The translations under genes were made by a program, and so were the position numbers. From Clostridia bacterium (lineage in GTDB: Bacteria > Bacillota > Clostridia > Oscillospirales > Acutalibacteraceae), in the NCBI GenBank assembly GCA_017621885.1, contig JAGASD010000034.1, forward strand, positions 1 through 42,504: DNA of 42,504 bases, given 5' to 3'. This document shows positions 3,579 through 24,922 of the stretch, in pieces (within the stretch, counting starts at the first letter, position 1; each line of letters begins with the position of its first letter). The notes below the pieces were generated by a model. It saw nothing but the letters and a program-made list of their open reading frames with translations. It was not told the origin of the DNA and did no database searches.

Positions 3579-3581
3579 ATT

Positions 3582-6265: not shown

Positions 6266-6278
6266 GACGACATGAAAA

Positions 6279-6320
6279 TTTTTAAGCTTTCAGTACTGAA
6301 ATTTTTTAAGCTTTCAGTAC
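6279..6320. repeat. Direct repeat pair ending in TCAGTAC
   Basis: TTTTTAAGCTTTCAGTAC occurs at 6279-6296 and 6303-6320 (24-base period, identical over 18 bases). The first copy extends into the perfect 14-base palindrome TTTCAGTACTGAAA (6288-6301). It lies between the divergent phosphohexomutase and TetR promoters and has the look of regulator binding sites. Confidence 0.6.
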
Positions 6321-6423
6321 GTTGATTTGCCGGGAAAGTGAAGAAATAAAAATAACCAAATAACACAAGCGTTAAGTGCGAGAAGCTGAAGCATTTTTTG
6401 ACAAATTTTTAACGAAAAAGATA

Positions 6424-6469
6424 TTGACAAACGCTAGTACGTGTGCTAAACTGTGACTAGTACGTGTGC
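6424..6469 (+). promoter_or_regulatory. TetR-gene promoter with two operator-like direct repeats
   Basis: TTGACA (6424-6429), a 17-base spacer and TAAACT (6447-6452). The 13-base sequence CTAGTACGTGTGC appears at 6434-6446, filling the spacer, and again at 6457-6469, around the expected transcription start (23-base period, about two helix turns). A repressor bound there would block RNA polymerase, as expected for TetR autoregulation (inference). Confidence 0.7.
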
Positions 6470-6506
6470 AATATTTGGATAAAACGGAAATATCAGGATG
6501 GTGTTT

Positions 6507-7178
6507 ATGACTAAAATAATAAAAAAAGAGAGTACAAAAGAGAAGATACTTCACGTGTCAATGCATCTTTTTCTTGAAAAGGGCTACAGTAAAACAACAG
6601 TAAAAATGGTTTGTGACGAGCTGCAAATAAGTAAGGGTAATTTTACTTTTTACTTTCCTGCAAAGGAAGATGTCCTTGCTGAGCTTGTCAGTATGCTTTG
6701 TGTGTTTCAGCAAAAGTTAATTGACTATGAAGCAAACAGAGGCTTTGATTTAATAATGTCAATCTGCATTGAGCTTATGACTGTTGCAGCCGCGTGCGAG
6801 GAAAACGATGCGGCAAGGGATTTTTTCATTTCGGCTTTCCAAAGTCCTGTTTGTCTTGAGTGTTTGCGTAACAACCACGTTGAACGAGCAAAAAATATAT
6901 TTGCAGAGCAGTGCAAGGATTGGACGGATTTGCAGTTTGTTGAAGCAGAAATACTTGTTCAGGGTATTGATTACGCAACGATAATTTCCGATACTGCCCG
7001 GGTTCCTCTTAAAACACGTATTTCCGGTGCTTTAAATCAAATATTGAGTATATATAATGTTCCTGAAGAGATCCGAAAAGAAAAAATTCAGCAAGTTATT
7101 TCTATGGATTGCAGAGAACTCGGCAAGCGTGTTCTGACGGAGTTTAAAGCTTACGTTGAGAAACTGAGCGCAGAATAA
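6507..7178 (+). CDS. TetR/AcrR-family transcriptional regulator
   Basis: A 223-residue regulator. The N-terminal domain (residues ~8-55) is a canonical TetR DNA-binding domain: KEKILHVSMHLFLEKGYSKT, then the helix-turn-helix TTVKMVCDELQISKGNFTFYF and the KEDVL capping motif. The C-terminal ligand-binding part is helical and not recognisable. I start at ATG 6507 rather than 6498, because AGGA sits eight bases before 6507 and directly abuts 6498. Repeats containing GTAC surround its promoter and a related TTAGTAC lies before the next gene. The downstream giant surface-protein genes run in the same direction, 59 bases away, so it is the likely controller of both itself and them (inference). No ligand can be predicted. 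Confidence 0.92.
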   Translation: MTKIIKKESTKEKILHVSMHLFLEKGYSKTTVKMVCDELQISKGNFTFYFPAKEDVLAELVSMLCVFQQKLIDYEANRGFDLIMSICIELMTVAAACEENDAARDFFISAFQSPVCLECLRNNHVERAKNIFAEQCKDWTDLQFVEAEILVQGIDYATIISDTARVPLKTRISGALNQILSIYNVPEEIRKEKIQQVISMDCRELGKRVLTEFKAYVEKLSAE

Positions 7179-7179
7179 T

Positions 7180-7207
7180 TTTACAGTAAATTAGTACATT
7201 TTAAACT
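7180..7207 (+). promoter_or_regulatory. Possible promoter of the giant-gene pair
   Basis: TTTACA (7180-7185), a 16-base spacer and TAAACT (7202-7207, same -10 as the TetR promoter) with TTAGTAC (7191-7197) in the spacer, mirroring the CTAGTAC in the TetR promoter spacer. Weak -35; offered as a candidate only. Confidence 0.35.
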
Positions 7208-7237
7208 ATATAGACTGTCTTTAACGGAGGTGTTCGG

Positions 7238-10200
7238 ATGAACAACAAATTAAAGGTAAAAATTAAAGGGATGAGCAAAAAAACAATCTGCAGCATATTA
7301 TCGCTTGCGGTTGTGCTCAGCAGTATAAGCATAGGGCTGATTATGGCGTCATCGGCTAACTATATTTCAATGCCGTCGTTATCAGAGTACCACGTTATGC
7401 CCGCATCAATGTCAAACGACTCTTCATTGTTTACAACGTTTGATAATGCAGAAAGGTATTTCTACCCCAGACCTAGCGACAGTATAATAGAGGTGCGAGA
7501 CAGAAAGCCCGGTGTAACAGGTCTCGGCGCGGTGAGAGTTTCGTGGAGAGGTAATTATATGTCTTCCGGATACGGATATATTACTTCGGTTCTGATTAAC
7601 GGCGGTCCGAACTACGGTCTTCTTGACACAAATCAGTTTGAAAGCAGAATGCTTGCATACGGCTCGCCACGTGAGGAAATGAAGCGTCAGCTGACTTACA
7701 GTGAAAATCCGAAATACCTTGGTCAGAGAGATAGCGGTTGGGAAAAATACGGAAAGGCTGCAATTGACCTTAACAGCAACGTTATTATTTCGGATATTAT
7801 GGTTCTTACACGTGATGCAAAAATTCCTGTACAGACAAGTATTTCAACCGGCGTGGAAGATGACATACCCTATCTTAACGTTAATTTTTCAGAGAAGCTC
7901 CGCGTAAGCGCGGCTGATACGGTTAATGCTGAGGTGCTTCAGACATTAAAATTGAGAATTGTTCTTGTTCCGCGAAAGAATCAGTCAGCCGTTCCTACAG
8001 TTGTAACAGCAAGAGCAGTAGAGTTTTCAGGCAGTTCGATTAAGTTTGAAATAGACAATACTGATGAAAACAAAAAGCTTCATAAAGAAATTTCCGGCGA
8101 CAGTACACGCAAGGGCTTTGGGTTTATTGCAGAGGATGAAGCTGCAGGTATTAAGTGGGTCGGATATGAAGACGTTCTTGATGAAGAATGGAAGATTATT
8201 TACGTAAGCGATATCAGCGAATACGCATCTTATCCCGTTCAGACAACAGCAGGTGTTATTGACGGCTACAGCGTATCTCTTCCTCTTACGGATATGGCAG
8301 GTAATCAGATTTCACTTTACGGTAACCGGGATTTAAGAAAAAGTAATTATACTTTTGATGCCGTTAATCCGGTTGCATCTGTGGTACAGATGAGCGGTTC
8401 ATCAATCAAGGTTGAAGGCACTCAGGCAAATCCCGAAACCGGTGATTGGCCGGAGGATATCGAAAGATCAGTCTTGTTCTCAGGGTTGGGTGACACGGTT
8501 GATGCCGATATCGTTATGAGCGAAAATGTAAAGCTCGCTCAGGGCAGTTTGTCTGACGTCAAATTGGAATGGAGTATAAAGGATGCTGAAGGTAATCCCA
8601 TAACTACAAAGCTTCTTTCGATTGATAATCACCGTTCAACGGTCAATTCCGATATTGTTTCAAAGCTTAATTTTGAAGGCTTTACCATAACAAAGGATAT
8701 GCAGATAAACGGTGTGCAGATTAAGCCCGTAAGAATCATAAATGTTTCATATATCAGCGATATGACGGGTAACAGAATGGAAGCGGATACAGAGGATGAG
8801 AAGTTTTTTGCACCTGTTATCAGCCATCAGACCTTCCTTGATACCAAAGGACCCACGGTTAATATTGCTGAAGACGGCATTTTCAAGGTGAATGATTCGA
8901 AATATACACCTGCCTCTGAGGATGAGGTTTATTTCATTATCGGTCTTGATATTTCTGACAGCAAGGTTACCGGTGAAGGCGGTGCCGTAACGTACGGCTC
9001 AGGAATTACCGCTGATATACCCAGCTACGTTAAGCTTGCAAGTTATGAAGGAGCTCCGAATGTAAGCTATCAGTATGAAATGTCACAAAAACCCGATTAT
9101 ATAAACGGTGATTTGGCGCAATCAGGCACAATAGGTGCTGAGTCAGCCGTCTCAGAGTTTAAAGTTCCTGCAGAAGGTGTTTTCTATATGCATCTTAAAA
9201 TGTACCCTCAGGCAGGTACGGAAATAAGCGATGAGCAGGGAATTACGGCACAGTTTATGCTTAAAGATGCAAAAGGCAACGAAAGCAATATAGGTGTTCC
9301 CATTGTGGAGCTTGGTCTTGACGATAAGGCTCCCGAAATAACAAGTCTTTTTGTTAAAGATCTTGAGACTCTTACAGTTACCGCACAGGCAAAGGACGCG
9401 AACAAAATAAGCCGTTTTGAATATCAGTGGACAGAAAACGGTGTTGCGCCCGCGGAAAATAAATGGACTATGCTCGATCTGACCGATAAGGTTCCCAACG
9501 AGCCGAACTTCGATATAAGCTACGGAGAAGACGTTGCGGATGCGTATTTTGATAAAACGTTGCATATCAACGTTTTTGACGGCAAGGAAAACAAGGTTTC
9601 AGACAGTATCAGAGTAACCGCAGACTTTGAAAAGAGAAATCCGCAGTATAAAGTGAACAGTACTGTTGATGTTCCGTCTGCGTCGCATTCAATCACGGTT
9701 CAGCCGCCCTTTACAAAACAGACAGGAGCAACGGGCGGATATACAAGAGCTACAGTTGTAAGCGGTGACAAAACCTATGTAAGAAATATAAAGCTTGAAG
9801 GCGCACAGACAGCAGAGCTTTTTGATGCGTCTGCCGAGTGGTACGAGGTTACCGTTGCAGACGGAAAATACACTTCCGTAAAAGCGGGCGTAACTCCGGC
9901 GTTTGATTATTATGGCTACATAACCGTTGATTTTGCAGCAAGCTCATCTGACTTGACTCCCGTTGAGGGTGGCGAGGTTGTACCTTCGGGTGATGCACAT
10001 TTTTCAACAGCTCAGGGAGTTATAATTAAAAACGCTCCCGCAAGAAACGATGTTCACTCCGTTGAGCTTGGCAAAGTATATGCCGCTGATGAATCGGAAA
10101 TGGCAGCGGTAACAGCCAACGGCAATACTTATTTTGAAGCAAACAATACCCTTAACGGTATAAGATATACCTTCACACTCAACAACGCTCTTGTTCCCGA

Positions 10201-13200
10201 ATGGGAAAGAGTAAACGTAGATTTTGCCAACAGCTATGCAGTACTTCTTAAAACTGATGCAAACGGCAATCTGGATACTGCAGAAGAAATAAGCGAAAGA
10301 TATTCCCTTGGTTCAAGTTCAAACCAGAGCTTTACTCTTACCGAAAAGGATAAGAACGGCAAGCTTTACGAAACGGGTGCATATATCGTAAAGGTTTTTG
10401 TTGCCCAGAAGAATGGAGGCACACAGGAATTTATTCTCGGTGATTACATTGTTCTTGATAATTCCGTGCTTCCCGAGGTTTTCGGTGTTCGTGAATATAC
10501 CAGAACAGTTGCGGTAACTTATCAGGATTCATATAACGGACCTATTGTTGAAACCATAGCCGCAGAGGACGGTGAGGTGCTTGAAACAATCAATATCTCC
10601 GTTGCAAAGCCCGATAAGTATGACAACGTTTCAGAGCTTGAAACAATCAGAAAGGACGGTAATCCCGTTTATGTGCTTGAGCACCAGAATGCAATTCCGA
10701 ACGGAACATCATATCCTTCCTATATAAGAACTAATATTGTTGCACAGTATGAGGGAGTAAACGTTCTCGGTAAGGATATAGGAAAGGTAAAGGGTATCCG
10801 TTACTGGAACAAGGCTCAGCCGGGTGATTATGAATCGCTTGAATATTCAGTGAATTATGCAACAGACACTCAGGCTGAGGTTTATATCTCTAACTATTTC
10901 GGTTGGTACTATGACCGTAATGAAAACAATGTTGTTACTGCCGAAGAGCTTGCACAGACAGATGTAAGTGAGTTCAGAACAGCTTTGGGCTCTAATACAA
11001 TCTGCTATCAGCTCATTATGGAAAACGGTAAGGAGTCGCCTGTTTATACATTTGAAATCAATCTTTACGACCATCAGGTTGATATGGCTCTTGAATATGA
11101 ATTCGGGCCCTCGATTGAAATCTATGACAGCGGATATAATTATGATGAAAACGGCGACTATTACAATTATGAGACAAAAAAACAATTAGCTCAGTATGTT
11201 GATGTTTATGTAACGGATGCTTATTCTCCCGTGGGCGGTCTCAGACTTTATCATTCAAAGTACAATGATTCCTACAACACCTGGGAGCGTACCGAAATTA
11301 CAGACACAGAAAGCCCCATAAGATTAACCTTGAGTTCTGATGGATATGAGGGTAGCGATTCAACAAGAAATGATATTACGGGTACTCCTGAATGTATGGA
11401 ATTCATAACCCTTGTTGATGCTGTTGGTACTGCTGTAACGGCGTATCCCATTCTATCCTATGCCGAAAATACAGAGGATAACCTTTATCCGTACGGTATT
11501 AGCTCTGAAATCGGAACAATGACCGTTAACTATTACGATAACAGTTATTCAACAGTAGGAACAGACGATAACATAACCCATAAGCTCGTTTTCAATAAAG
11601 AAAGCGGAAAATCAGTAGTAGAGTCTGTTGACAGTATATCTGTTCAGATTGACGATAATTCACCCGTTACGCTGAACACGTCAGGAGAAAATGATATTAT
11701 TTACGGTGCGAACAGTGCCGGTATTGTAAAATTCACTAACGGCTATTTCAGCGTAGGTGATATATCTTATGCCTACAGAGATATGGTTGAATTTGTCTTC
11801 CCGTATGACCCTGCAATTGAGAACGGTGCAACGGTTAATCATACCGTAACCGTTTGCGGTTATCTCGACGACGAAGAGGTTTATAACAAAGCCTTTAACG
11901 TATCTGCTGAAAATACTGCACCTACTCTCACTCTTAACGCTCCGTATATCGGAGAAAACAGAGTTTTTGCAAACGCGTATCTTACAAAAACTCCTTATGA
12001 ATTGGAGTATTATAATTACTCAACAAGTATTTATGAATCGTTTTATGCCGATGGTGATTACACCGTTGAGGTATATGATAAATACGGAAGGCGCTACGAT
12101 CTGCCGTTGACGGTTTCGGGACTTCCCGAGGATCCGGTTGTAACGTTTTCTGAAACGGCTCCCACAACGGAACCCGTAACAATAACAGTTACGACTAAGG
12201 CAGGAACACTTGCCGTATCCAACGAAATTCCCGAAGGCTGGAGTGCTCAGGGAGACGGTACTTCGAAGATTGTCATAACAGCAACCCAAAATGCTGAAAA
12301 TACGTATGTTGATTGTTTTGATGCTAACGGTGAATATATTTCATACGTTGGTTTGGCAGTTAATAATATTTATCCGAGCGAAATTGTTCCTGAAATTCAG
12401 TGGCAGTATAACAAACACAAAGTAAACCCCAAAGATAATACATATGTTGGTGAAATAACAGCAGTTCTTGTTGATAAAAACGGAACAGAGGTTATTGATC
12501 CGAAAACAGGTGTTGCGCCAAGCTTTGTATTCGTTCCCGACGGCGTTACGGAATACACATTCAGCGGTTATACAAATATCGCAGGTGCAACGGGTCCCGA
12601 TATTAAAGCCGAACTTCCCGTAAAGCTTATTTCAGGTGAAACAGCAACAACCGAAAGTGATACGTATTCACCTGATATTGCAATAACAGGGTTTGCAACG
12701 TACAGCACAAGCACACAGCCGATTGAGGCAGTATACGTCAAATCAGATAAAACAAGACCCGAGGATGCAAATATTGTTTCAGCTGATTATTCAGAAATTT
12801 ATGGTGAAAAGGTCTATGATAACATTGACCTCCTTTTAAGAGAAATCGGTTGGGCAGACAGCTACGTTCTGAATGTGAATGTTCTTGATGAAAATTCGGT
12901 TAAGCTTTTCATTACCCGGGATGTATATGCTCCCGTGCCCGATTACAATTATGGCAAAAGTGATACTGTTGACGGTGTAAGTCTTGTTGGCAGAACGCTT
13001 GAAATCAGCAAAAACACATCATTTGCTCTTCACGCTGTTGATAAAAAAGGCAATGCTTCTTCCGTTCAGTTTAACGTAACAACACTCGGTGCTTCTGCGC
13101 CTGAACCGAATATTGTTCAGGTTCTTACAAAAACAGGCGATGAAGTCAGAGTTTATGTTCTTCCGCCCAATATGGAGGGTGTTACAAATCTTACAATAAC

Positions 13201-14710
13201 CGGTGACGGAGCAAAAACCGAAACTGATACAGCCTCAATTTTCTATGGCTATCAGTATATGTCATATACCGATAATAAAAAGGTTGTTATTGCTTATTCG
13301 TATGACCACGCAGGAGCAACTCATAAAGGAAATATTGAGCTCGATATTATTCAGATTGATAAATCAGTTCCTTCGGTTCAAAAAACGAAGTGGTCTTCAA
13401 ATTACGATGAAAACGGTAATCGTATGACAAATCAGGATATAAGCGTACAGCTGCAGCTTAATAAGGCAATCAGTGATATTTATCCCGTTGATGCCGACGG
13501 TGTGAGAATTCCCACACCCTATGGTGTAACCATTTCGTATCTTGAGGACAGAGTCACGGTTGTTTATGAGATGGATGCTCCCGAAATAACTCTTAAAGCA
13601 GTTTCAGCGGTGAACCGTTCACTTGTAGGATATATTAATCTTCCTGAAATAAAAACGATTGATAAAATCCCTGCTGATGTAACAGCGGTTACAGAATATG
13701 CTGAAAACCGCAGAAATGCCGTGATTACTTTTAATTCAAGTGAGGATGTAATTCTTCAGTCAAGCGGTGAAAAGTGTACTCAATTTACCGAAAAAGTAAC
13801 AAAAGACGGTATATTGACTTACAAATTTGCAGACCTTGCAGGTAATGTAACTGAAGTAAAGGTTGAAATAAAAGAGCTTGTAACAGAAGATCTCACACTT
13901 GTTCTTGCAACCGAAAAGAGTGATGCTTCAATAATCAACCCCGAAACCTATGACGTTGATGTCGGAGATGTTCTTTATGCAAAAACAAACCGTGCTTCAA
14001 CCGTTACGGTAAACGGTGAGGATGCACAGAGCATACCTGCAAATACCTGGGCGGCTATTGAAATCAAAGAGGATTCCGAAGGCCTTTATCCGATAATCAA
14101 GGCAAATGATAATTACGGAAATACTGCCATAGTTCAGCTTCTGCGTATTCCGTTAAAGGACAGAAATGCCCCCGATGTTATCGTTAAAAAGAATCTTATT
14201 TCAGCTTCAATTGATTCAACCAAGGCACAGATTGATTCTATTATCAGAGAAAATATTATGGTTTCCGATGATGTTACTCCTTCGGATAAGCTTAATGTGA
14301 AATTTGATTATAACCTCGGCAGTACAGGTGGAAAATATCTTGTAACCTGCACCGTTTCCGACGAAAACGGTAACGAAACTCAAAGGATGTTCTGGATAAG
14401 AATTTATGACGGTAAGGAAATGACCGTTCGTGTCAACGGAAAAATCGTTGAAAGAGAAGAAACGGTTATGGTTTCCGCAGGCGAACAGAAAATTGATGTT
14501 TCATTCACGGGTGAGCCTTACAAGGTTGTTTATAAGCCGGGTATTAAGACCGTAGGTCAGATGAAAACAGGCTCTACCTATGTAACACAGGGCTACACCG
14601 AGGAGAAAGAAAACACCTTCGCTCTTGATTTTAACGAATCGGGATATTACAGCTTCCTTGTCACAACACAGAGTAACGAAACCTTCCGTTTCGTGCTTTA
14701 TGTGGAATAA
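7238..14710 (+). CDS. Giant secreted multi-domain surface protein A
   Basis: A 2,490-residue exported protein. Residues ~1-40 are a signal peptide (basic KVKIKGMSKK, then a hydrophobic core ending near MASSA). The rest is almost wholly beta-rich and reads as a string of Ig-like/bacterial Ig modules with recurring D-x-A-GN phrases (LTDMAGNQ, VDKKGNAS, FADLAGNVTE, VSDENGNETQ), typical of surface and adhesive proteins. Residues 1226-1237 (DRNENNVVTAEE) fit an EF-hand calcium loop. No catalytic motif, LPxTG, SLH, choline-binding or dockerin module was found, and the C-terminus ends in plain beta structure, so attachment is unexplained; it may bind the neighbouring giant. GGAGGTG precedes the ATG. 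It is probably co-transcribed with the next gene (33-base gap). Function unknown. Confidence 0.85.
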   Translation: MNNKLKVKIKGMSKKTICSILSLAVVLSSISIGLIMASSANYISMPSLSEYHVMPASMSNDSSLFTTFDNAERYFYPRPSDSIIEVRDRKPGVTGLGAVRVSWRGNYMSSGYGYITSVLINGGPNYGLLDTNQFESRMLAYGSPREEMKRQLTYSENPKYLGQRDSGWEKYGKAAIDLNSNVIISDIMVLTRDAKIPVQTSISTGVEDDIPYLNVNFSEKLRVSAADTVNAEVLQTLKLRIVLVPRKNQSAVPTVVTARAVEFSGSSIKFEIDNTDENKKLHKEISGDSTRKGFGFIAEDEAAGIKWVGYEDVLDEEWKIIYVSDISEYASYPVQTTAGVIDGYSVSLPLTDMAGNQISLYGNRDLRKSNYTFDAVNPVASVVQMSGSSIKVEGTQANPETGDWPEDIERSVLFSGLGDTVDADIVMSENVKLAQGSLSDVKLEWSIKDAEGNPITTKLLSIDNHRSTVNSDIVSKLNFEGFTITKDMQINGVQIKPVRIINVSYISDMTGNRMEADTEDEKFFAPVISHQTFLDTKGPTVNIAEDGIFKVNDSKYTPASEDEVYFIIGLDISDSKVTGEGGAVTYGSGITADIPSYVKLASYEGAPNVSYQYEMSQKPDYINGDLAQSGTIGAESAVSEFKVPAEGVFYMHLKMYPQAGTEISDEQGITAQFMLKDAKGNESNIGVPIVELGLDDKAPEITSLFVKDLETLTVTAQAKDANKISRFEYQWTENGVAPAENKWTMLDLTDKVPNEPNFDISYGEDVADAYFDKTLHINVFDGKENKVSDSIRVTADFEKRNPQYKVNSTVDVPSASHSITVQPPFTKQTGATGGYTRATVVSGDKTYVRNIKLEGAQTAELFDASAEWYEVTVADGKYTSVKAGVTPAFDYYGYITVDFAASSSDLTPVEGGEVVPSGDAHFSTAQGVIIKNAPARNDVHSVELGKVYAADESEMAAVTANGNTYFEANNTLNGIRYTFTLNNALVPEWERVNVDFANSYAVLLKTDANGNLDTAEEISERYSLGSSSNQSFTLTEKDKNGKLYETGAYIVKVFVAQKNGGTQEFILGDYIVLDNSVLPEVFGVREYTRTVAVTYQDSYNGPIVETIAAEDGEVLETINISVAKPDKYDNVSELETIRKDGNPVYVLEHQNAIPNGTSYPSYIRTNIVAQYEGVNVLGKDIGKVKGIRYWNKAQPGDYESLEYSVNYATDTQAEVYISNYFGWYYDRNENNVVTAEELAQTDVSEFRTALGSNTICYQLIMENGKESPVYTFEINLYDHQVDMALEYEFGPSIEIYDSGYNYDENGDYYNYETKKQLAQYVDVYVTDAYSPVGGLRLYHSKYNDSYNTWERTEITDTESPIRLTLSSDGYEGSDSTRNDITGTPECMEFITLVDAVGTAVTAYPILSYAENTEDNLYPYGISSEIGTMTVNYYDNSYSTVGTDDNITHKLVFNKESGKSVVESVDSISVQIDDNSPVTLNTSGENDIIYGANSAGIVKFTNGYFSVGDISYAYRDMVEFVFPYDPAIENGATVNHTVTVCGYLDDEEVYNKAFNVSAENTAPTLTLNAPYIGENRVFANAYLTKTPYELEYYNYSTSIYESFYADGDYTVEVYDKYGRRYDLPLTVSGLPEDPVVTFSETAPTTEPVTITVTTKAGTLAVSNEIPEGWSAQGDGTSKIVITATQNAENTYVDCFDANGEYISYVGLAVNNIYPSEIVPEIQWQYNKHKVNPKDNTYVGEITAVLVDKNGTEVIDPKTGVAPSFVFVPDGVTEYTFSGYTNIAGATGPDIKAELPVKLISGETATTESDTYSPDIAITGFATYSTSTQPIEAVYVKSDKTRPEDANIVSADYSEIYGEKVYDNIDLLLREIGWADSYVLNVNVLDENSVKLFITRDVYAPVPDYNYGKSDTVDGVSLVGRTLEISKNTSFALHAVDKKGNASSVQFNVTTLGASAPEPNIVQVLTKTGDEVRVYVLPPNMEGVTNLTITGDGAKTETDTASIFYGYQYMSYTDNKKVVIAYSYDHAGATHKGNIELDIIQIDKSVPSVQKTKWSSNYDENGNRMTNQDISVQLQLNKAISDIYPVDADGVRIPTPYGVTISYLEDRVTVVYEMDAPEITLKAVSAVNRSLVGYINLPEIKTIDKIPADVTAVTEYAENRRNAVITFNSSEDVILQSSGEKCTQFTEKVTKDGILTYKFADLAGNVTEVKVEIKELVTEDLTLVLATEKSDASIINPETYDVDVGDVLYAKTNRASTVTVNGEDAQSIPANTWAAIEIKEDSEGLYPIIKANDNYGNTAIVQLLRIPLKDRNAPDVIVKKNLISASIDSTKAQIDSIIRENIMVSDDVTPSDKLNVKFDYNLGSTGGKYLVTCTVSDENGNETQRMFWIRIYDGKEMTVRVNGKIVEREETVMVSAGEQKIDVSFTGEPYKVVYKPGIKTVGQMKTGSTYVTQGYTEEKENTFALDFNESGYYSFLVTTQSNETFRFVLYVE

Positions 14711-14743
14711 GGATAGCCAACATTAGTAAAGGAGACAGATATT

Positions 14744-17700
14744 ATGAAATTCAAATTTAAAAAGATATTGTCGTCGATACTGGTTGCGGTTATGCTTGTG
14801 ACAAGTATAACCACCGTGGCTTATGCTGCGGGCTCGGGTGAAAATAATCCTGAAAAGCTTGAGCTTTCGGATGAATATATCAAGGTGACCGTTTCCGGTG
14901 AAAACGGAGGCTTCCTTATTGATACACTGGAAGGCGATAAGCTTGAAAAGGCAGATAATAATAAGTTCCTTCTTTATCCTGCAGAAGAATATGACACTTC
15001 ATACACATCCATCCGTGTTACAAGAAAAAACGGTGATGTTGAGGATTACATATTCGGCAGAAAATACGGTTTTCTCTGGCTTGAGGGCAGAGATATAAGT
15101 ATCGCAAAAGAGGGTAACTCCATTGTTGCTACCTGGAGCGTTAAAGACATCACTGTTGAGCAGAGCCTGACTCTGCTCGACGAGATGGCTTCGCAGCACG
15201 GAATGGTGGGCATAAGCTATAAAGTTTCTACAACATCTGATGACGTGGAAAACGTAAAGCTTCGTATTATGCTTGATACTGCGCTGGGATATCAGGATTA
15301 CGGAACGTATCAGGTGCCTAACTCGCTTAATGAGTACGTTACCGTGAGCGGCGAAAAGATTATTAAAACAAACGGCGGCATAGATTATAACGGTACAATG
15401 TTTGCCATTGACAATGCAAAGTCTCCGAACATCAGTGCCTATACCACTGATGCGGCAGTCGGAAGCGAAAAGGTTATGCCTTATCAGATTGCATTCGGTC
15501 ATTGGAACAATCTTGCTTCAAGTGTTTTCGATTTCGTTCCCAACGGGGAGCTTGATTTCACAAATCCTTACAATATTGATTATATGACTGCCGACAGTGC
15601 GTACGCGCTTTATTATGATATGGGTGCCATCGCACAGAACGGTGAAGCATCAATAGGTACATATTACGGCGTTTTCTCAAATTCAACCGTAAGCAAGGAA
15701 GAGGGCGTAGCAATTAATTTTACTACTCTTCCCGCAAATATGCAGTTCAATGAAGACAAAACAGCATATCTTCCCCAGGTTGGCGATAAAGAAGGCGACG
15801 TAAAGCTGCAGATGACGGTTGAGAATATAAGCGGTTCGGATATTTCCGGTGCAACTGTTGTTATCAAGTCAAAAAACGGTGTTGTTCCTTACAGCAACTG
15901 GCAGCTCGGTCTTTCTTACGGAAGTGAAGATGACTACACAACAACTATTAGCGATTTTGTTGCAGGAGAAGAAGCACTTTTAGACATTTATTACAACATT
16001 TCACCTATTCGGGTAAGTGAATACAGACGCTTTGAGGTGCTCGTATATAAAGGTGAGCAAAATGAAGCGAATCTTCTCGGCAGTCGGGAATTTTATCTGT
16101 TCTGCCCGGGTGAGCTTGGCGAAGTGGTAGCATTTAACAGTCTTGACCCGCAGGTAATTTACAGTGAGGGCACACGACAATTGTTCCTTTCGGGCAATAA
16201 CTTTTCACTTATGGCAGATCCTACTGCGTATGCAACGGTTTTAAGGCCTGTTGCAGGCGGCAGCGACGTGGTTATTCCGTCGAAGGATGTCAGCGTAGAT
16301 CCGGGAACAAATACAATGTACATTATTGTTGAACAGGAAATGATTCCGGGTGGATATCAGGTTGTTTTTGATTGGAACGAAGCAGGTAAGGAAGATACTA
16401 CCTCGCAGCTTCTGCAGTTCCAGGTTTCAAGCAAGCCCGAGGTTATGTCACCTATATACGGACTTGTTACCGTTGAAAAGGATGACGGCTTTAACGAACG
16501 TAACCCCAAATACAAAGTCGGTATCTATGAAACCGAAGAAGATTATAAATCTAAAATGAAAGACCCTGATAATCAGGTTTATCTTGAAATCAGAGGTAAT
16601 TTCGGTGTCCGTTATGACGACAACGGAAATCCCGTTGAGCTAAAGGCAACCTCTGTTGCCGATGTGGAAGGCAGAATTACGAACACCATCAATATCAGTA
16701 ATTGTATTGATATTGAGGATGGTTATCTTGCTGTTCTTGTGAATAATCCGGGTACGGATGAACAAACCATCGATGTCAACATTGACGGTAAGGTTTATAC
16801 AACCAACAGCAGAACGAAGGTCTGGAACGGTGTTTGCGCTGTTACGTCATTTGAAAACGGTGAATTAAGCGAGCTTATTCAGTATAAAGCCGACGGCTCA
16901 ACGGCTACGGATATTGAAAACAGTGTTACTAACACAAATGCAATAACGCTTCTCTGGCCCGGTGCGGCAAGCGAAGCACAGACTCTCGCAGGTGTTGTTT
17001 TTGAATTCAGATATTGTCAGTTCGGTATGATGGCAACTGAATACGGAACAGTTACTGATTCTACTCCAAAGAGAAGAGTTATTTCCTTCGGCGGAGAAAT
17101 GTCCCCGAATTTCCTGCTTCCTAAGAACTATGACCATTCCCGCACGCAGACTTCTCCCTTAGATGTGGTTCAGTATGCGCTTGCAAGAAAAAACTATACC
17201 GCTTCACAGCTTCGTGAGGTACGTGCAAGCCTTTCTAAGGATCAGAGAGCTTGGGAAATTGCACAGAGAGGAACTCTTAATCTCAATGTTAGCAATATAC
17301 TTTTCGGCGGCGGCTTTATAGGGTTTAATACTTCGATTGAGGTTGGTATTCCCGAGTATTTCAAAGGAATTCCCAGCATTGGTGGCGTTCTTGACCTCAA
17401 GATACTTCCTGCTGCAGGCCATTGGGAGGTCGGTGTTGAAGGCCAGGCAAGCTTCTTAACCGTTATTAAGGTTGAAGCAGCACTTACTCTTATGAAGGTT
17501 GACGGCATATCTCCCGGTGTTGATAAGATTTATTTCTACTGTGAAGGCAACTACCCCGGTATCAATGTTGACGGTGTGGGTGTTTTCTGGGTCAGAGGTA
17601 TGGGCGGCGGTCTGGACGGTATGTACAGATCCCTTTACGTGCAATCAAAGGTTCCGCCTATAAGCCTTTTGTTATCGGGCAAATTTGCACTGTTCAGTGT

Positions 17701-20700
17701 TTTTGAAACAAGAGCCGATTTAACTATCGGAGCACAAGGCTTTGAAGTTATGCTTTCTGAACTCGGAATAGCAGGTGTTGAACTGATTGAAAAAATCGGC
17801 ATATCAGCCTACTGGTATCCCGAATTTAAATTCAGAGGCTCAATAAATGTTGATATTCTCGATATTATTTTAGGTGCTGGTTACGTTGTTATAGAAGAAG
17901 ACCAAAGGAATGATTCAATATTCTGGGAGGGCTTTGTAACAGCAAGAGTCCAAACGCCTGATCTACCGTTGATTGGCAGTATAACCATTGGGCAGGCAGA
18001 TCTGGGTCTTAATAAAAATAAGATATGGGGCGCCCTGCATGTTATCGGTATTGATATGGGTGTTACATACTATTGGGGCGGCGACGTTGATTTCGGCTTC
18101 GGAAAGTACGATGCCCCTGAGCCCACTTACCCCATTGCAGCATTTTCAACCCGTGTAGGTAAAAATGCACAGACAGGACAGATTCTTTATATGAGCGCAG
18201 GTACTAATGCCGTGCTTGCCGCTGAAGCAGTTGTTGCTCCGGAGTACTTTGATGAAGCCACAGTTACTGATGAATCTAAGGTTGTAAGTGCTGTTGACCG
18301 TATGAGTCACACAATTCAGCTTGGCGGCTATAAGGGTCACAGAGATATGGCTCTTACCGTGACCTATGAGGCGGAAAGCCTTGAAAAAGCTCAGGCTATT
18401 GCTTATGGCGATAAATACGGCAATTCGGGTATCAGACTTACTGCGGCTGATGACGGCAGCGAATATAAGCTCAAGTGGATTGATAATTCCGTTGACGCAG
18501 ATAAACAGGCTGATGCAAACGCGCTTCTTTCCTACAACGAGGAAACAAAGCAGGCTCACGCAACAATCTCATTCACAGATAAGGATTCATATTCTCACAA
18601 CTGGAACCTTACGGCAAACGCATCTGCTGACCTTGCTCTTTATGAAATGGAGCACATGGCAGGTCTTGACAGTGTGGACTATACCTGTGATGAAGATAAT
18701 ATGACAGTTAACTGGCAGGGCAGTCTTCTTGAGGATATTGATAACCTTGCAGTTTATGCAATCGGTGAAGATGAAGAGGTTTATACACTTTATCAGACAC
18801 AGGATACTGCAGTTATTGCAGGCGGTATGGCAAATGCAACCAAGGGAAGTGCAACGTTTGAAATTCCTGCAGAGCTCCCAAGCGGAAGCTATACAATCAA
18901 GGCTGTTGCAAGCAGCGAAAAAAACAGCATAAACGATATTGCAGAGGCACAGGAAAAATTTACCTACGTAAATCCCAATCAGCCGGCAGACCCTGAAATA
19001 AAAGGAGTTAAGCTCGGTGGCGATTACAGCATTGATGTAAACGTCGGAGCAAAGGATGGTTACGAGGGATACGTTGCAACCGTTTATGAAAAGCAGACTG
19101 AAAACGGTGAAACAAGCTGGGTTAAAACTGAGCTTGGCAATCAGTGGATTGAACCCGATGAAAACGGCAAGCTTCCCGAAACAATCGTTGCAGGTGGCCG
19201 CTATACAAATACGGTCTATACCGATGCAGAGGGCAACGTTATTTCTGCATCCGAAGCTGAAGGCGCAAAGGATGTAACCGAAACAACAGAGGAAATCGGA
19301 CTTGAGGCAGGCAAAACCTACCGAGTGGGAATTGTTGCACACAAGACTGATGCTCAGGGTAATACACTTTTCTCCGAAGAGGTGTTTACCGATGAAATTG
19401 AAATGAAGGCTCCTGTTGCTCCGAAGATAAATATCAGAGCACAGAAGGCAAAATTAATTGAGGATATATCAATGGTATCGGCAACGGTTGATACTGTAAC
19501 CGAAAGCAAGGTAATAATTGACGTTTCTTCCGATATGCCTGTCAGCGGTACTTGGTCACTTGATGACGGAGCAGAAAAAGGCGAATTGAAAGCTGAAAAT
19601 TCCGCTCAGATTAGCCTTGGCGGCGAGACCGGTCTTGCGGAAGGTGAGCATATGCTCACAATTCACGGAGAAAACGAAAACGGCGATGCTTTTGCGAAAA
19701 ACTATCGCTTCAAGGTTGATACAACCGCACCCAGACTTCAGTTCAGTTCACCTCATAACGGAGCGTTCTTTACCGAAACAATTACCGTTGCGGGCTTGAG
19801 CGAACCTAAGGCTACTGTTTATATTTATCTTGACAATATGCTTTGCAGGAGTGTTGAGGTTGATTCAAACGGTGAATTTAAAGCTGATGTTGCTGCTGAT
19901 ACCTCAAAGCTTGAGCAGACCGTTTCCGTTTACGCTAAGGATTTGGCAGGTAACGAAACAAGGGTTTATGAGATGCAGCTTACAAACTCCATTATCGGAG
20001 AATACGGTTCGGAATTTGCAATTTTCCTTGACGGAACGAACTATACCAATAAAACCATTCCTGCAGGGGCAGGCGGATTACTTGAATTGCGTGCTGTTTC
20101 GGGTGACAGAAGCATAGTTATTCCTGCAAACAGCATTATCGGCAGACAGGCAGAATGGTCGGTAACAACCGTTGAGGGTACGGCAAGCATCAGTAATATG
20201 CAGCTTGTAACCGACAGCGCTGTTAACGGTATGCTTTCCGTTGAGCTTGATAAGCAGAATATTGCAGCTGTTCTTGGCGGTAATAAATCATCTGAAAACA
20301 ACTTTTATAAAATTATTCTTCCCGAAAACGGAGTTGGCTTTACTGTTAACGCGCAGGGCAAAACAACCGTGAAGCACGGGTCGGATTTCAGCTTTACCGT
20401 TGATGTTGCTGAGGGCTACAGCGAGACTGAAGATTTTGCCGTAAGGGTAAACGGTCTCGAAATCGAAGAGGTAAACGGTGTTTATACAATCAGCAACATA
20501 ACCAATCGGAAGACGGTTACGGTTGAAGGTGTTGCGGACATTACTGCGCCGGAAGCTGAAATTCAGCTCAGCACCAATTCGTTTAACAGCTTCCTGAACA
20601 CAATAACATTTGACCTTTTCTTTAAAGAAACGCAGAAGGCAACCGTAACTGCAACTGACAGCGGCAGCGGTGTTAAGAGCATTTATTATCTCGTTTCTGA

Positions 20701-22378
20701 CAAGGCGTTGACTATTGATGAAGTCAAAGCTGCTGAGTGGACGGATTACGATAGCCCTGTAAACCTTAACCCCGATATGAAGGCTGTTGTTTACGTTAAG
20801 TCTGTTGATAACGCAGGTAATATTTCATATATCAGCTCTGACGGTCTTGTGCTCGACAGCACCGTACCTGTAATTATCGGTATTGAGGACGGCAAAACCT
20901 ACTACGGAGAGCTTACCGTTACTGCACAGGATGAATATCTTGACAAGGTGCTTCTTGACGGTGAATCGGTTAAGCTTGAAAACGGTAGCTTCACAATTCA
21001 GCCTGACAACAGTGAGCACACTGTTGAGGTTACCGATAAGGCGGGCAATATTGTGAGCTATACTGTAAGCGTATTTGAAACCTTTGAGGTTAAGTTTATA
21101 GTTGATAATGAGGTTTACAAAACCGTAACCGTTAATTACGGTGAAGACCTTGAAGCGGATAAATTCCCTGCTATCCCCGAAAAAGAGGGTCACACTGAGA
21201 CTTCTCCTGTATGGGATACAGACAGCCTTAAAAATATCAAGGAAGACAAGGTTGTAAGAGCTGTGTATACGCCCGATATGTGTACGGTTGTGCTTCCCGA
21301 TAATCCAATCGGCTTCAAAGTAGTTACAGAGCAAAGCACCGAGGTTCCTTACGGTCAGCCTTTCAGCTTTACAGTTGAAGCTCTTGAGGGCTACTCTAAG
21401 ACTGATAAGTTCAAGGTTTCCGTAAACTCAATAGAGCTTTCTGATATCAATGACGTTTATACGGTTGTTCAGGTACAGTCGGATATTGTGATTACAGTTG
21501 ATGGAATTGCTGATACAACAGCGCCCGAAACAGAGGTTAAGGTTAAGGACAATATCTGGAACAGCTTCCTGAATACAGTCACCTTCAACCATTTCTTCAA
21601 GGAAACACAGAATGTCAGGATAAACGCAGCCGATAAAGGAAGCGGCGTGAATAAGGTTTACTATTACCTTTCCGACAGAGCGTTGAATCTTGATGACGTA
21701 AAGGCTGCTGAATGGGTTGAATATACTGATAGCGTAAAGCTTGATCCCGAGCAGATTGTTGTTGTATATGTTAAGGCTGTAGATAATGCAGGTAACGTGT
21801 CATACGTAAGCTCTGACGGACTTGTGTTTGACAATACGTCTCCCGTAATCACCGGTATTGAGGATGGCGGAGTTTACGAAGGTGAAGTAACCGCAACCGT
21901 TGACGACGACAACGTAGGCAGAATTACAGTTGACGGAAAGATTGTTTACGATGCGGAGATTGATGATGAGTCAATGGGCAGACAGTTTACGGTTAAGCCC
22001 GCCGAAGGCGAGCAGATTATTATCGTTGCCGACAAAGCAGGTAACGAAATCATAGTAACCGTTACAGTTAATAAACAGTATAATTACAACGAGCTTATTG
22101 CCAAGCTTGACAGCTTCGATAAAGATCGTGTAACAGTCTTCTGGGAAAAGGATATAGAGGATCTTATCAGTCAGATAAACAATCGTCTTGAAAGACCCGG
22201 TTTATCCTATGAAGAACGGACGGCTCTTGAAGAGGGTAAGGCACAAGCAGAAGAGCTTATTGAAATTATCCACAATCCGGCTGAATATATTTCTATACGT
22301 TTCTTCTGGTTGATTTTCGATTTTATTCACTGGATTTTCACCAGCGTTGCTTTTCCGTTACCGGAAACAGCCCGTTAA
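14744..22378 (+). CDS. Giant secreted multi-domain surface protein B with tandem 325-residue module
   Basis: A 2,544-residue exported protein. Signal peptide at residues 1-28 (cleavage near AYA-AG). Residues ~40-320 form an all-beta domain (FGRKYGFLWLEG, SLTLLDEM, IMLDTALGYQDYGTY) that may be a sugar-enzyme-like supersandwich without visible catalytic residues. Residues ~480-570 look like an IPT/TIG domain. Residues ~846-1123 are an unusual Gly- and aromatic-rich, strand-dense domain. Ig-like modules follow. A 325-residue module is then repeated in exact register (LPENGVGF at 20318 and LPDNPIGF at 21293; NSFLNT at 20585 and 21560). The last ~100 residues are helical (NELIAKLDSFDKD...) and end in a hydrophobic stretch RFFWLIFDFIHWIFTSVAF that might insert in the membrane. 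No LPxTG. Ribosome site AAGGAG precedes the ATG. Confidence 0.85.
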   Translation: MKFKFKKILSSILVAVMLVTSITTVAYAAGSGENNPEKLELSDEYIKVTVSGENGGFLIDTLEGDKLEKADNNKFLLYPAEEYDTSYTSIRVTRKNGDVEDYIFGRKYGFLWLEGRDISIAKEGNSIVATWSVKDITVEQSLTLLDEMASQHGMVGISYKVSTTSDDVENVKLRIMLDTALGYQDYGTYQVPNSLNEYVTVSGEKIIKTNGGIDYNGTMFAIDNAKSPNISAYTTDAAVGSEKVMPYQIAFGHWNNLASSVFDFVPNGELDFTNPYNIDYMTADSAYALYYDMGAIAQNGEASIGTYYGVFSNSTVSKEEGVAINFTTLPANMQFNEDKTAYLPQVGDKEGDVKLQMTVENISGSDISGATVVIKSKNGVVPYSNWQLGLSYGSEDDYTTTISDFVAGEEALLDIYYNISPIRVSEYRRFEVLVYKGEQNEANLLGSREFYLFCPGELGEVVAFNSLDPQVIYSEGTRQLFLSGNNFSLMADPTAYATVLRPVAGGSDVVIPSKDVSVDPGTNTMYIIVEQEMIPGGYQVVFDWNEAGKEDTTSQLLQFQVSSKPEVMSPIYGLVTVEKDDGFNERNPKYKVGIYETEEDYKSKMKDPDNQVYLEIRGNFGVRYDDNGNPVELKATSVADVEGRITNTINISNCIDIEDGYLAVLVNNPGTDEQTIDVNIDGKVYTTNSRTKVWNGVCAVTSFENGELSELIQYKADGSTATDIENSVTNTNAITLLWPGAASEAQTLAGVVFEFRYCQFGMMATEYGTVTDSTPKRRVISFGGEMSPNFLLPKNYDHSRTQTSPLDVVQYALARKNYTASQLREVRASLSKDQRAWEIAQRGTLNLNVSNILFGGGFIGFNTSIEVGIPEYFKGIPSIGGVLDLKILPAAGHWEVGVEGQASFLTVIKVEAALTLMKVDGISPGVDKIYFYCEGNYPGINVDGVGVFWVRGMGGGLDGMYRSLYVQSKVPPISLLLSGKFALFSVFETRADLTIGAQGFEVMLSELGIAGVELIEKIGISAYWYPEFKFRGSINVDILDIILGAGYVVIEEDQRNDSIFWEGFVTARVQTPDLPLIGSITIGQADLGLNKNKIWGALHVIGIDMGVTYYWGGDVDFGFGKYDAPEPTYPIAAFSTRVGKNAQTGQILYMSAGTNAVLAAEAVVAPEYFDEATVTDESKVVSAVDRMSHTIQLGGYKGHRDMALTVTYEAESLEKAQAIAYGDKYGNSGIRLTAADDGSEYKLKWIDNSVDADKQADANALLSYNEETKQAHATISFTDKDSYSHNWNLTANASADLALYEMEHMAGLDSVDYTCDEDNMTVNWQGSLLEDIDNLAVYAIGEDEEVYTLYQTQDTAVIAGGMANATKGSATFEIPAELPSGSYTIKAVASSEKNSINDIAEAQEKFTYVNPNQPADPEIKGVKLGGDYSIDVNVGAKDGYEGYVATVYEKQTENGETSWVKTELGNQWIEPDENGKLPETIVAGGRYTNTVYTDAEGNVISASEAEGAKDVTETTEEIGLEAGKTYRVGIVAHKTDAQGNTLFSEEVFTDEIEMKAPVAPKINIRAQKAKLIEDISMVSATVDTVTESKVIIDVSSDMPVSGTWSLDDGAEKGELKAENSAQISLGGETGLAEGEHMLTIHGENENGDAFAKNYRFKVDTTAPRLQFSSPHNGAFFTETITVAGLSEPKATVYIYLDNMLCRSVEVDSNGEFKADVAADTSKLEQTVSVYAKDLAGNETRVYEMQLTNSIIGEYGSEFAIFLDGTNYTNKTIPAGAGGLLELRAVSGDRSIVIPANSIIGRQAEWSVTTVEGTASISNMQLVTDSAVNGMLSVELDKQNIAAVLGGNKSSENNFYKIILPENGVGFTVNAQGKTTVKHGSDFSFTVDVAEGYSETEDFAVRVNGLEIEEVNGVYTISNITNRKTVTVEGVADITAPEAEIQLSTNSFNSFLNTITFDLFFKETQKATVTATDSGSGVKSIYYLVSDKALTIDEVKAAEWTDYDSPVNLNPDMKAVVYVKSVDNAGNISYISSDGLVLDSTVPVIIGIEDGKTYYGELTVTAQDEYLDKVLLDGESVKLENGSFTIQPDNSEHTVEVTDKAGNIVSYTVSVFETFEVKFIVDNEVYKTVTVNYGEDLEADKFPAIPEKEGHTETSPVWDTDSLKNIKEDKVVRAVYTPDMCTVVLPDNPIGFKVVTEQSTEVPYGQPFSFTVEALEGYSKTDKFKVSVNSIELSDINDVYTVVQVQSDIVITVDGIADTTAPETEVKVKDNIWNSFLNTVTFNHFFKETQNVRINAADKGSGVNKVYYYLSDRALNLDDVKAAEWVEYTDSVKLDPEQIVVVYVKAVDNAGNVSYVSSDGLVFDNTSPVITGIEDGGVYEGEVTATVDDDNVGRITVDGKIVYDAEIDDESMGRQFTVKPAEGEQIIIVADKAGNEIIVTVTVNKQYNYNELIAKLDSFDKDRVTVFWEKDIEDLISQINNRLERPGLSYEERTALEEGKAQAEELIEIIHNPAEYISIRFFWLIFDFIHWIFTSVAFPLPETAR

Positions 22379-22413: not shown

Positions 22414-22455
22414 GGTGCTGTAAAAAACGCAAGTTTTTTACAGCACCATTTTAAT
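22414..22455 (+). terminator. Terminator of the giant-gene transcript
   Basis: A perfect 15-bp stem GGTGCTGTAAAAAAC (22414-22428) with its complement (22433-22447) around GCAA, followed by ATTTTAATT. It separates the giant-protein transcript from the GH95 operon. Confidence 0.85.
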
Positions 22456-22588: not shown

Positions 22589-24922
22589 ATGTCAACAAAG
22601 CTTTGGTACAATGAATTTAAAGATGATTGGATGAGGGCGTTGCCTTTGGGTAACGGCAGAGTGGGTGCTATGGTATTCGGTGACCCCCATTGCGAAAAAA
22701 TTGAAATAAATGAGGAGTCTCTCTGGAGCGGACGTCAGATTCAGGAGAATTATCACGCATCTCCCGAGGCTCTTGCTGAAATACGCAGGCTCATTTTTGA
22801 AGAAAAGCTTCACGAGGCGGCAGACCTTGCACGTGCAACGTTCTTGTCTGACCCTCCCGTAGTGCGTTCTTATGAAAGCTTCGGTGAAATTTTTATCGAT
22901 TTTCTTGATAAATCACCTTATACGGAATATCGCAAGGAGCTTGAATTGTCAGAGGCAGTTTCCCGTGTTTTTTGGAGAAAAAGCGGTGCTTCTTTTGAAA
23001 GCGAATGCTTTGTGAGCCAGGGGCAGGACGCATTTGTTTACAAGGTAAAAACCGACGGAAAGCCTTTTTCCTGCAACGTTACAATGAAAAGAAAGCAGGA
23101 TGCTTACACAGGCTGTATAAGTAATGATACCGTTATTATGAACGGCCGCACAACCTACGCAACACATCACCACACAGGCGAAGGCGGTGAGGGTCTTTCC
23201 TTCGGCAGTAAGCTCCGCGTTGTTACAGATGGTATTTTGTCAAACGATAAGACCAATGTGACTGTTTGCGATGCAACATACGTAATTGTTTACGGTGCTT
23301 TTGCAACAAATTACAACGTGAATAAATTTGATGTTGATGAAAGTATTGATTACAGAGAGCTTTTAAATAAATGTATTGAAAAAACTGTATCAAAGGATTA
23401 TGAGGAAATTAAAAAAGAGCATATTGAAAACCATAAAAACTGGTTCAGCTCTGTTGAATTTCACCTTGATTCCGAGGACTTTTCTCATCTTCCCACTGAT
23501 GAACGTCTTGATGAATTCTGGGACGGAGCAGCAGATTTTGATCTTATAACGCTTTATTATAATTTCGGAAGATATCTGCTTATTGAAAGCTCGGGCAAAA
23601 ATGCAAGTCTTCCCGCAAATCTTCAGGGAATCTGGTGCCACGATTTCACTCCCCCCTGGGGAAGCGATTTCCATACGAATATAAATCTCCAGATGAACTA
23701 CTGGCCGTCGGAATCTGCAAATATGAAAGAAACCTTCAAGCCCTTTGTTCATTTTATGAAGATGATAAGCGGTTTTGGCTCTGAAACAGCAAAGAAGCTT
23801 TTCGGAGCAAGGGGATGGGTAGTGAATCATACGGTTGATGCATTCGGCCGTACGGGTGTTCACGACAGCGTTGATTGCGGCTTTTTCCCCATGGCAGGTC
23901 CTTGGCTTTGCCTCAATCTTTGGGAGCATTATGAGTATACAAACGATAAAAAATATCTTGAGGAAATATATCCTATTTTAAAAGGCTCTTGCGAATTTGT
24001 TTGTGATTATCTTGTTGAGGATGACAGAGGATACCTTGTAACGTCACCCTCGAATTCACCTGAAAATGAATTTTACTTTATTGATTCAGAGGGCAAAAAG
24101 CAGGAGAGTATGTTCACATACGCTGCAGCAATTGACTTCCAGATTATTGAGGCACTTTTCACAAGAACTGCACACGCAAGCAAGGTTCTTGGCATTGATG
24201 CCGATTTTACGAAAGGTCTTTTTGATGTTTTGAAAAGACTTCCGCCCATAAAAATAAGCGAACGCTACGGCACAATTCAGGAATGGGTAAAGGATTATGA
24301 GGAGACTGAGCCCGGTCACCGCCATATTTCACAGCTTTTTGCTCTTTATCCCGGTGATGCAATAAATGAAACCGACAGCAGGATTTTTGATGCTGCCCGT
24401 AAGACAATTGCAAGGCGCATTGAAAACGGCGGTGGAGAAACAGGCTGGTCAAGAGCCTGGACAATTTGTTTCTATGCAAGACTCAAGGACGGTAACAACG
24501 CAGGCTTCCATTTAGATTATCTTTTGAAAGAATGCACCGCCTACAACCTCTTTGATATTCATCCGCCCTTCCAGATTGACGGTAACTTCGGGGGTGTTGC
24601 AGGTGTCACAGAGATGCTTATTCAGAGTCATCTCGGCAGTCCCGATAACAGAATTGTTGAGCTTTTGCCTGCTCTTCCTGAGACCTGGAAAAACGGATAT
24701 ATAAAGGGTGTCCGTGCAAGAGGCAATTTCGTATTTGATATTTTCTGGAAAGACGGTATTCTTACGGAGGTTAACGTTAAATCCGAGGATGAAAGAAAAT
24801 TGTCTTTGAAAATAAATCTTAACGGAAAAAAACTTGAAACCGAAAAAGAATATGCCTTGAACGGAGCTTTTGTTGAAATGAATTTCAAAGAAGGCGAAAC
24901 AGTAAATCTTAAATTTATATAA
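22589..24922 (+). CDS. GH95-family glycoside hydrolase (alpha-L-fucosidase type)
   Basis: A 777-residue enzyme with the full GH95 layout. The N-terminal beta domain begins LWYNEFKDDWMRALPLGNGRVGAMVFG and IEINEESLWSG. An (alpha/alpha)6 barrel follows, with NINLQMNYWPSE (N364, N366), SPSNSPENEF (E492) and FQIDGNFGG (D664). These are the positions I expect to correspond to the Asn pair and acidic catalytic residues described for the bifidobacterial alpha-1,2-fucosidase. Length is usual. There is no signal peptide, so it acts inside the cell on imported oligosaccharides. Some GH95 members remove L-galactose rather than L-fucose. It heads a four-gene operon with two lipoproteins and a PHP enzyme, with no sugar transporter beside it. 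Confidence 0.92.
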   Translation: MSTKLWYNEFKDDWMRALPLGNGRVGAMVFGDPHCEKIEINEESLWSGRQIQENYHASPEALAEIRRLIFEEKLHEAADLARATFLSDPPVVRSYESFGEIFIDFLDKSPYTEYRKELELSEAVSRVFWRKSGASFESECFVSQGQDAFVYKVKTDGKPFSCNVTMKRKQDAYTGCISNDTVIMNGRTTYATHHHTGEGGEGLSFGSKLRVVTDGILSNDKTNVTVCDATYVIVYGAFATNYNVNKFDVDESIDYRELLNKCIEKTVSKDYEEIKKEHIENHKNWFSSVEFHLDSEDFSHLPTDERLDEFWDGAADFDLITLYYNFGRYLLIESSGKNASLPANLQGIWCHDFTPPWGSDFHTNINLQMNYWPSESANMKETFKPFVHFMKMISGFGSETAKKLFGARGWVVNHTVDAFGRTGVHDSVDCGFFPMAGPWLCLNLWEHYEYTNDKKYLEEIYPILKGSCEFVCDYLVEDDRGYLVTSPSNSPENEFYFIDSEGKKQESMFTYAAAIDFQIIEALFTRTAHASKVLGIDADFTKGLFDVLKRLPPIKISERYGTIQEWVKDYEETEPGHRHISQLFALYPGDAINETDSRIFDAARKTIARRIENGGGETGWSRAWTICFYARLKDGNNAGFHLDYLLKECTAYNLFDIHPPFQIDGNFGGVAGVTEMLIQSHLGSPDNRIVELLPALPETWKNGYIKGVRARGNFVFDIFWKDGILTEVNVKSEDERKLSLKINLNGKKLETEKEYALNGAFVEMNFKEGETVNLKFI

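Follow-up and report, generated by a model that had tools for sequence, protein, structure and literature searches.

Giant proteins rich in Ig-like modules are already known from Clostridia (PMC3723904), and surface layers (S-layers) made of Ig-like arrays are known as well (PMC10120038). HycP of Clostridium cellulolyticum, a protein of ~250 kDa with many Ig-like (HYR) modules, a CBM3 and no known function, is described there as present in two close strains only, and its inactivation left the binding of cells to cellulose unaffected (PMC3723904). The locus considered here lies in a window of 42,504 nucleotides, the whole stretch of DNA that was analysed, and encodes two giant exported proteins, A and B. 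Like HycP, A is giant and Ig-like, but it has no CBM3 match (Pfam) and is paired with B. The HPI S-layer of Deinococcus (PMC10120038) likewise consists of Ig-like surface arrays, whereas A and B form a patchy two-protein cassette with adjoining regulators. SLH- and dockerin-bearing surface proteins of Clostridia resemble many relatives of B, whereas B of the window has neither module. A literature search of titles and abstract openings returned no description of such a giant A-B pair. We suggest that A and B are probably an undescribed two-part surface apparatus, found as a pair in many Clostridia.

The ORF listing gave the frames, lengths and strand of A and B and the 33-base gap between them exactly as a sequence-only reading of the window had reported. 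That reading had also placed a TetR gene ahead of A, which was confirmed and ends 59 bases before A. A purine run of the ribosome-binding type precedes the start codon of A and that of B. A scan of positions 6150-7300 for a terminator-like hairpin found none; with the hairpin that follows B, this makes tetR-A-B read as one unit, and the promoter-like site listed in Table 1 is probably its start. The N-termini of A and B are signal-like, with a basic stretch plus a hydrophobic segment whose hydropathy over 19 residues peaks at 2.42 in A (residue 17) and at 2.25 in B (residue 8), and each protein is present as a single copy in its genome. Selection on the frames, hitherto argued from their intactness, was also borne out. 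Against three relatives (L035-L037), dN/dS lay between 0.096 and 0.104 in B and between 0.139 and 0.148 in A, or ~0.10 and ~0.14. Such low values mark the two frames as more than chance and indicate that A and B are both under purifying selection in the clade of the window.

Table 1. Coordinates of the features of the tetR-A-B locus in the window.
Feature	Position	Strand	Remarks
Sigma-70-like promoter, TTGACA-17-TAAACT	6424..6452	+	Upstream of tetR; 10/12 matches
Operator-like imperfect palindrome	6434..6450	.	Between -35 and -10, overlaps -10
tetR	6498..7178	+	226 aa, TetR-family regulator; PF00440 42.8 bits (cut-off 24)
Protein A gene	7238..14710	+	2490 aa, exported; read as anchor-free Ig-like arm
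A C-terminal 890 residues	12038..14707	+	Best-kept part among relatives; GYYTxxVxTQxRxxYRxxxYV-type motif at end
Protein B gene	14744..22378	+	2544 aa, exported; read as anchored partner
B N-terminal domain (Bn)	14837..15763	+	Predicted galactose-mutarotase-like supersandwich
B linker region (Bi)	15764..17200	+	Conserved; no family match over cut-off
B middle domain (Bm)	17201..18160	+	Gly-rich, hydrophobic; no known family found
Big_6 bacterial Ig domain in B	19751..19972	+	28.9 bits (cut-off 27.6)
OmpL47-type domain in B, best stretch	21602..21811	+	72.1 bits (cut-off 40)
C-terminal helical-looking stretch and hydrophobic tail of B	22061..22375	+	Clade-specific candidate attachment module
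Terminator-like hairpin, 15 pairs	22414..22447	+	3' of B, closes the unit

Comparison of loci establishes the pairing of A and B. Loci were scored with profiles of Bn, Bi, Bm and the C-terminal 890 residues of A. A protein B with both Bn and Bm was found in 38 distinct loci, of which 37, including the window, could be read upstream; in the remaining one (L086), B starts 134 bases from the contig end. In all 37, a relative of A, or its cut end, lies directly 5' of B on the same strand, with gaps of -116 to +83 bases as the genes were picked. This count includes one A taken from tblastn (L039), one weak A (L091, 34 bits) and six cut by a contig end (L039, L052, L055, L081, L082, L098). In the public assemblies, B is interrupted in L085 and L087, and A in L093. 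L046-L048 are near copies; L044 and L045 duplicated the records of L042 and L040, respectively, and were not counted. Genome-wide matches agreed with the locus maps. Above 140 bits, a line of our own choice, 18 A matches were listed from 16 of 391 class genomes, and all 16 also matched the B profile. Among genomes lacking a B match, the highest-scoring A match reached 100 bits (G615), and three genomes with a B match fell below the line (G813, 110 bits; G912, 99 bits; G878, 96 bits). The A profile touches 155 of the 391 genomes through short Ig-like pieces, and such rows were excluded from the co-occurrence. Thus, the proposal that A and B form a unit held up: independent occurrence of the whole proteins was sought and not found in 37 of 37 loci and 16 of 16 genomes. 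Single B domains do occur without A, namely Bn in four proteins (L059, L094, L095, L096) and Bm in one protein (L099) and one contig-cut piece (L058). Two loci call for separate mention. The A of L041 (L041:3472-7236) has just 1254 aa and no N-terminal half, despite 3.4 kb of upstream DNA with other genes, and is either a shortened A or a misassembly. One genome (G610) carries two A-B cassettes on distant branches of the B tree (L080, L089); in one of them no regulator was recognised, and the other has a divergent TetR.

The cassette has a patchy distribution. In a search of 200 family genomes, A matched its own genome only, whereas B matched 39, through its C-terminal third except in its own genome and in one with an N-terminal match (G194). 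The C-terminal part of B with the OmpL47-type domain is among the regions matched by other genomes of the family. Two genomes of the same genus gave no match. Residues 1-1252 of B matched 17 of 394 order genomes and, in a named collection, eight loci: three 'Clostridia bacterium' assemblies from goat gut (86-87% identity) and one from water deer, one Lachnospiraceae and two Oscillospiraceae assemblies (one of the latter from goat), and the isolate Pseudoflavonifractor sp. An44. A profile built from nine core sequences of B matched 33 of 391 class genomes from many families, several of them by single B domains only. Regions of 21 of these 33 were read, namely of the own genome, An44 and 19 others. 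Within the sensitivity of the scans, no relative of the B core or of Bn turned up in phage, plasmid and viral collections.

The attachment modules, as the comparison places them, lie on B. SLH repeats end B in 18 of the 38 loci, according to an HMM built from five of those B proteins; Pfam confirmed all three that were tested (L050, L054, L083). B of L046 ends in a type I dockerin (Dockerin_1, 42.4 bits), and its near copy L047 has one by reading. In four loci (L038, L040, L041, L043), B ends in a hydrophobic segment with a basic end (hydropathy 2.03-2.62), and that of L040 additionally has an FctA domain. B of the window has neither SLH nor dockerin (Pfam; SLH HMM) and ends, like that of L035-L037, in a stretch that looks helical, with a hydrophobic tail (hydropathy 0.81-1.55). 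By reading, no recognisable anchor was found on B of L055, L085 and L090; the B ends not listed here are truncated at a contig or locus end or by a frame break. On a tree of 35 B cores, from which the near copies L036, L047 and L048 were omitted, the 26 loci with a known anchor require at least three changes of anchor kind, the minimum possible for four kinds. A count of 12 changes was discarded because it had taken cut ends as a kind. Anchor exchange among lineages is thus real yet infrequent.

On A, no comparable module was detected. The SLH HMM (E ≤1) matched none of 36 A proteins, and in a search of the same 36 ends for a transmembrane-like segment, the 19-residue hydropathy of the last 150 residues never exceeded 1.44. 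The sequence-only reading had cast B as the anchor and A as its partner, and the exchanged attachment modules, present on B and absent from A, support this assignment. The hydrophobic C-terminus on which it had relied is real but stays below the usual transmembrane hydropathy: the 19-residue maximum in the last 60 residues is 1.55, against 2.03-2.62 in the four relatives named above. The window B closes with LPETAR, in which LPETA follows the hydrophobic stretch and a single Arg comes after it, so the order of a sortase signal (LPXTG-type motif, hydrophobic segment, basic tail) was not found there. Because the motif stands after the hydrophobic stretch and is absent in L035-L037, it is not a usual sortase signal. 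A profile of the tail, run against 150 genomes of the family, found two further proteins in a genome of another genus (G148; 120.5 and 101.8 bits) and weaker matches in three more genomes (≤30.5 bits). The two G148 proteins (L115:1-2628 and L116:739-2691) are unrelated to B elsewhere and carry the tail at their ends; one has a signal-like start, and the start of the other is lost at a contig end. The tail is thus a C-terminal module shared by proteins that otherwise differ, and in the clade of the window it is a candidate for an undescribed surface attachment signal.

A itself is highly variable from lineage to lineage. Pfam and NCBIfam gave no match over cut-off on A of the window; among the Ig-like families, only Big_6, in B, passed its cut-off there. 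Pfam Bact_surface_Ig-like was matched by 13 of 20 aligned A members, the window not among them (E ≤0.1, best 3e-9).

The stretch ahead of A could be read in 31 loci. A regulator lies there in 23 of them, and the other eight showed no recognisable one. The kinds differ: TetR in eight loci (L088 and L089 just below the Pfam cut-off), LytTR/GHKL in eight (L040 and L046 by Pfam, the rest by grouping, L050 via its kinase alone), LuxR-type in five (L043 and L083 by grouping only) and other two-component regulators in two (L087 by grouping, L097 by Pfam). Ten proteins and the window TetR were checked against Pfam, the remainder being assigned by sequence grouping, which placed the regulator of the An44 copy with the LytTR type. 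A search for the tetR-A-B triplet in other genomes thus did not sustain the TetR gene as a fixed third member of the system, since 15 loci have another regulator in its place. Among 188 neighbouring ORFs of the 38 loci, the groups present in at least three loci were regulators or kinases and one subtilase/SLH group. Response regulators recur in nine loci (seven LytTR-type by grouping, plus L087 and L097), GHKL-type kinases in eight, TetR in six (a second TetR type in two more), LuxR-type in five, the subtilase/SLH group in four and a kinase-like group in three. For 20 labelled loci, the B tree requires at least seven changes of regulator kind, where the minimum possible is three. With seven changes against three for the anchor, the control circuit has been exchanged repeatedly and the anchor a few times. 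The comparison thus shows A-B cores that are kept, with exchange of the regulator between lineages being more frequent than that of the attachment module.

At the tetR promoter, the aligned -35 box is TTGACA in the window and L035-L037 and TTGATA in L038; the window TetR is 64-68% identical to that of L035-L037 and 49% to that of L038. The palindrome has the form TTAGCAT-GTGCTAA, with a second partial copy at 6457-6473 of the window, and aligns in the window and L035-L038, which are five of the eight loci with a TetR gene. A degenerate pattern of it occurs once in the own genome, at the tetR promoter site, and once each in the L037 and L038 genomes, at tetR promoters by our reckoning; it did not match in the L035 genome, where the copy differs. 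The reversed control pattern occurred twice in the own genome and in none of the other three, so the argument for the palindrome is one of position, not of count.

The Ig-like composition and the SLH anchors raise the possibility that A and B make up a surface layer or coat of tiled Ig-like arrays, in which B would be the anchored lattice protein and A would form a second layer. S-layers are built by Ig-like arrays in bacteria and archaea (PMC10120038), and 18 of the 38 B proteins bear SLH repeats. On the other hand, the patchy spread, with 17 of 394 order genomes and neither of two same-genus genomes matched, and the regulators beside most copies are unlike a constitutive coat, and A varies strongly among lineages. 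We consider a coat unlikely.

B could be divided into conserved and variable parts. When 22 B proteins were aligned, the mean column majority of 50-residue blocks was 0.37-0.70 over positions 51-1850 and ≤0.35 beyond 1850. The nine-member B core gave no Pfam match over cut-off, and PDB sequence searches with A, B, the B core, Bn and Bm gave no significant match. The GxGGG motif of Bm may resemble DUF6603 (PF20248); among the Pfam matches of 32 middle domains at E ≤1, DUF6603 was absent. A model of the B core (1183 residues, nine sequences) had a mean pLDDT of 39.4, too low for use. The sequence-only reading had recognised no enzyme, sortase signal, SLH or dockerin module; family searches likewise found no enzyme, SLH or dockerin family in A and B of the window, while the Big_6 and OmpL47-type domains nearer the C-terminus of B had gone unnamed. 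The equivalog model for OmpL47 of Leptospira scored 35.9 bits against a cut-off of 250, and the domain model alone passed.

Bn gave a model of moderate confidence (mean pLDDT 60.9) with a supersandwich beta fold of the galactose-mutarotase-like type. Its structural likenesses are the N-terminal domains of GH94 phosphorylases and GalM, at 4-14% identity across the structural alignments, and they include non-sugar proteins, namely the YidC periplasmic domain and a chloroplast NDH subunit. In GH94 and related phosphorylases, a catalytic (alpha/alpha)6 domain follows the supersandwich, and galactose mutarotase enzymes have catalytic His/Glu residues. Bn differs from these systems in that no catalytic family follows it: no glycosidase family passed its cut-off in B or in the nine core sequences. 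It was also seen near the start of unpaired exported-type proteins, the four mentioned above, which makes it part of a wider uncharacterised domain family.

The likeness to GH94 phosphorylases suggests another use, in which Bn would be a sugar-binding or sugar-processing module that supplies the enzymes of the nearby GH95 and rhamnosidase genes. A GH95 gene (PF22124, 514.6 bits) and a rhamnosidase gene do lie downstream of B, and one of the B proteins tested (L046) carries a dockerin. However, a terminator-like hairpin and promoter-like sites stand between B and GH95, no GH95 relative appeared on the other maps of one set of loci, glycosidases are absent among the neighbour groups of at least three loci, and no catalytic domain was found in B. 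This makes a role in polysaccharide use as improbable as a coat, and the GH95 and rhamnosidase genes were rejected as parts of the system, being separated by the hairpin and not recurrent beside other A-B pairs. The genes at 22589-30315, 3' of B, encode GH95, a lipoprotein-like protein, a PHP domain, an M15 peptidase, an rRNA adenine dimethylase and an alpha-L-rhamnosidase; none is among the recurring A-B neighbours of other loci. Upstream of tetR-A-B, DUF6088 and AbiEii genes adjoin (2970-4586) as a type IV toxin-antitoxin-like pair.

A and B might also be independent Ig-like surface proteins that are transcribed together and inherited together through linkage only. An interaction between them is itself inferred, and the short Ig-like pieces of A and the C-terminal modules of B are widespread on their own. 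Divergence of A and of B was correlated over 28 loci (Mantel r 0.948, 0 of 2000 permutations; L036, L039, L047, L048, L052, L081, L085, L086, L093 and L098 omitted), which is weak as support because it is expected anyway for linked genes, and the nearest neighbours of A and B agreed in just 16 of the 28. Independence is nevertheless difficult to reconcile with the way A and B stay adjacent and in the same order in all 37 loci, across many families, while other neighbours change, and with an A that has no anchor of its own; we judge it distinctly unlikely. A large secreted effector or toxin-like complex against other cells is very improbable: two giant exported subunits, an uncharacterised middle domain and regulation would fit it, but no toxin or enzyme family matched and B bears surface anchors.

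A steady pair, differing anchors on one partner and differing genetic switches together make a two-part surface apparatus probable. Our preferred reading, which we hold at somewhat better than even, is that A and B together make up a single surface apparatus of Clostridia, produced conditionally, in which B anchors A. B would be laid down at the surface through whichever anchor the lineage has, and secreted A would dock on it, probably via the conserved parts of both, the C-terminal 890 residues of A and the N-terminal 1140 residues of B. A would then be a long Ig-like arm standing on an anchored B base, with Bn as a possible glycan-facing element of that base. As the mutarotase-like fold predicted for Bn hints at such a role, the likeliest use would be adhesion to a glycan-rich surface, such as plant fibre, mucus or another cell. 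The pair would be made only when its regulator permits. In the window, TetR probably represses its own promoter, and hence A and B, via the palindrome beside and over the -10 box, and a ligand would release the repression. The sequence-only reading was largely right in outline, apart from TetR as a member of the unit. A bolder form is less likely than not: a new giant two-subunit surface organelle, in which an anchored B base, with a middle domain of no known family, captures and displays the secreted Ig-like A, as a non-covalent counterpart of a pilus with exchanged attachment and control and, in one clade, an undescribed C-terminal tail.

If A and B assemble, they would form an undescribed surface structure of ~5,000 residues per unit in many Clostridia, with B domains that lie outside the coverage of the family library searched. 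The giant unnamed proteins of goat and water deer gut genomes and of Pseudoflavonifractor sp. An44 would thereby gain a meaning. The changed anchors may serve as a natural experiment on the requirements of the core, and the palindrome of the tetR promoter would be a direct handle on the timing of production. Among the neighbours, a gene for a subtilase carrying three SLH repeats (by Pfam in L084) begins 4 bases 3' of B in the branch of L082, L083 and L084, and a gene of L053 was grouped with it. The subtilase of L082-L084 may process the A-B pair.
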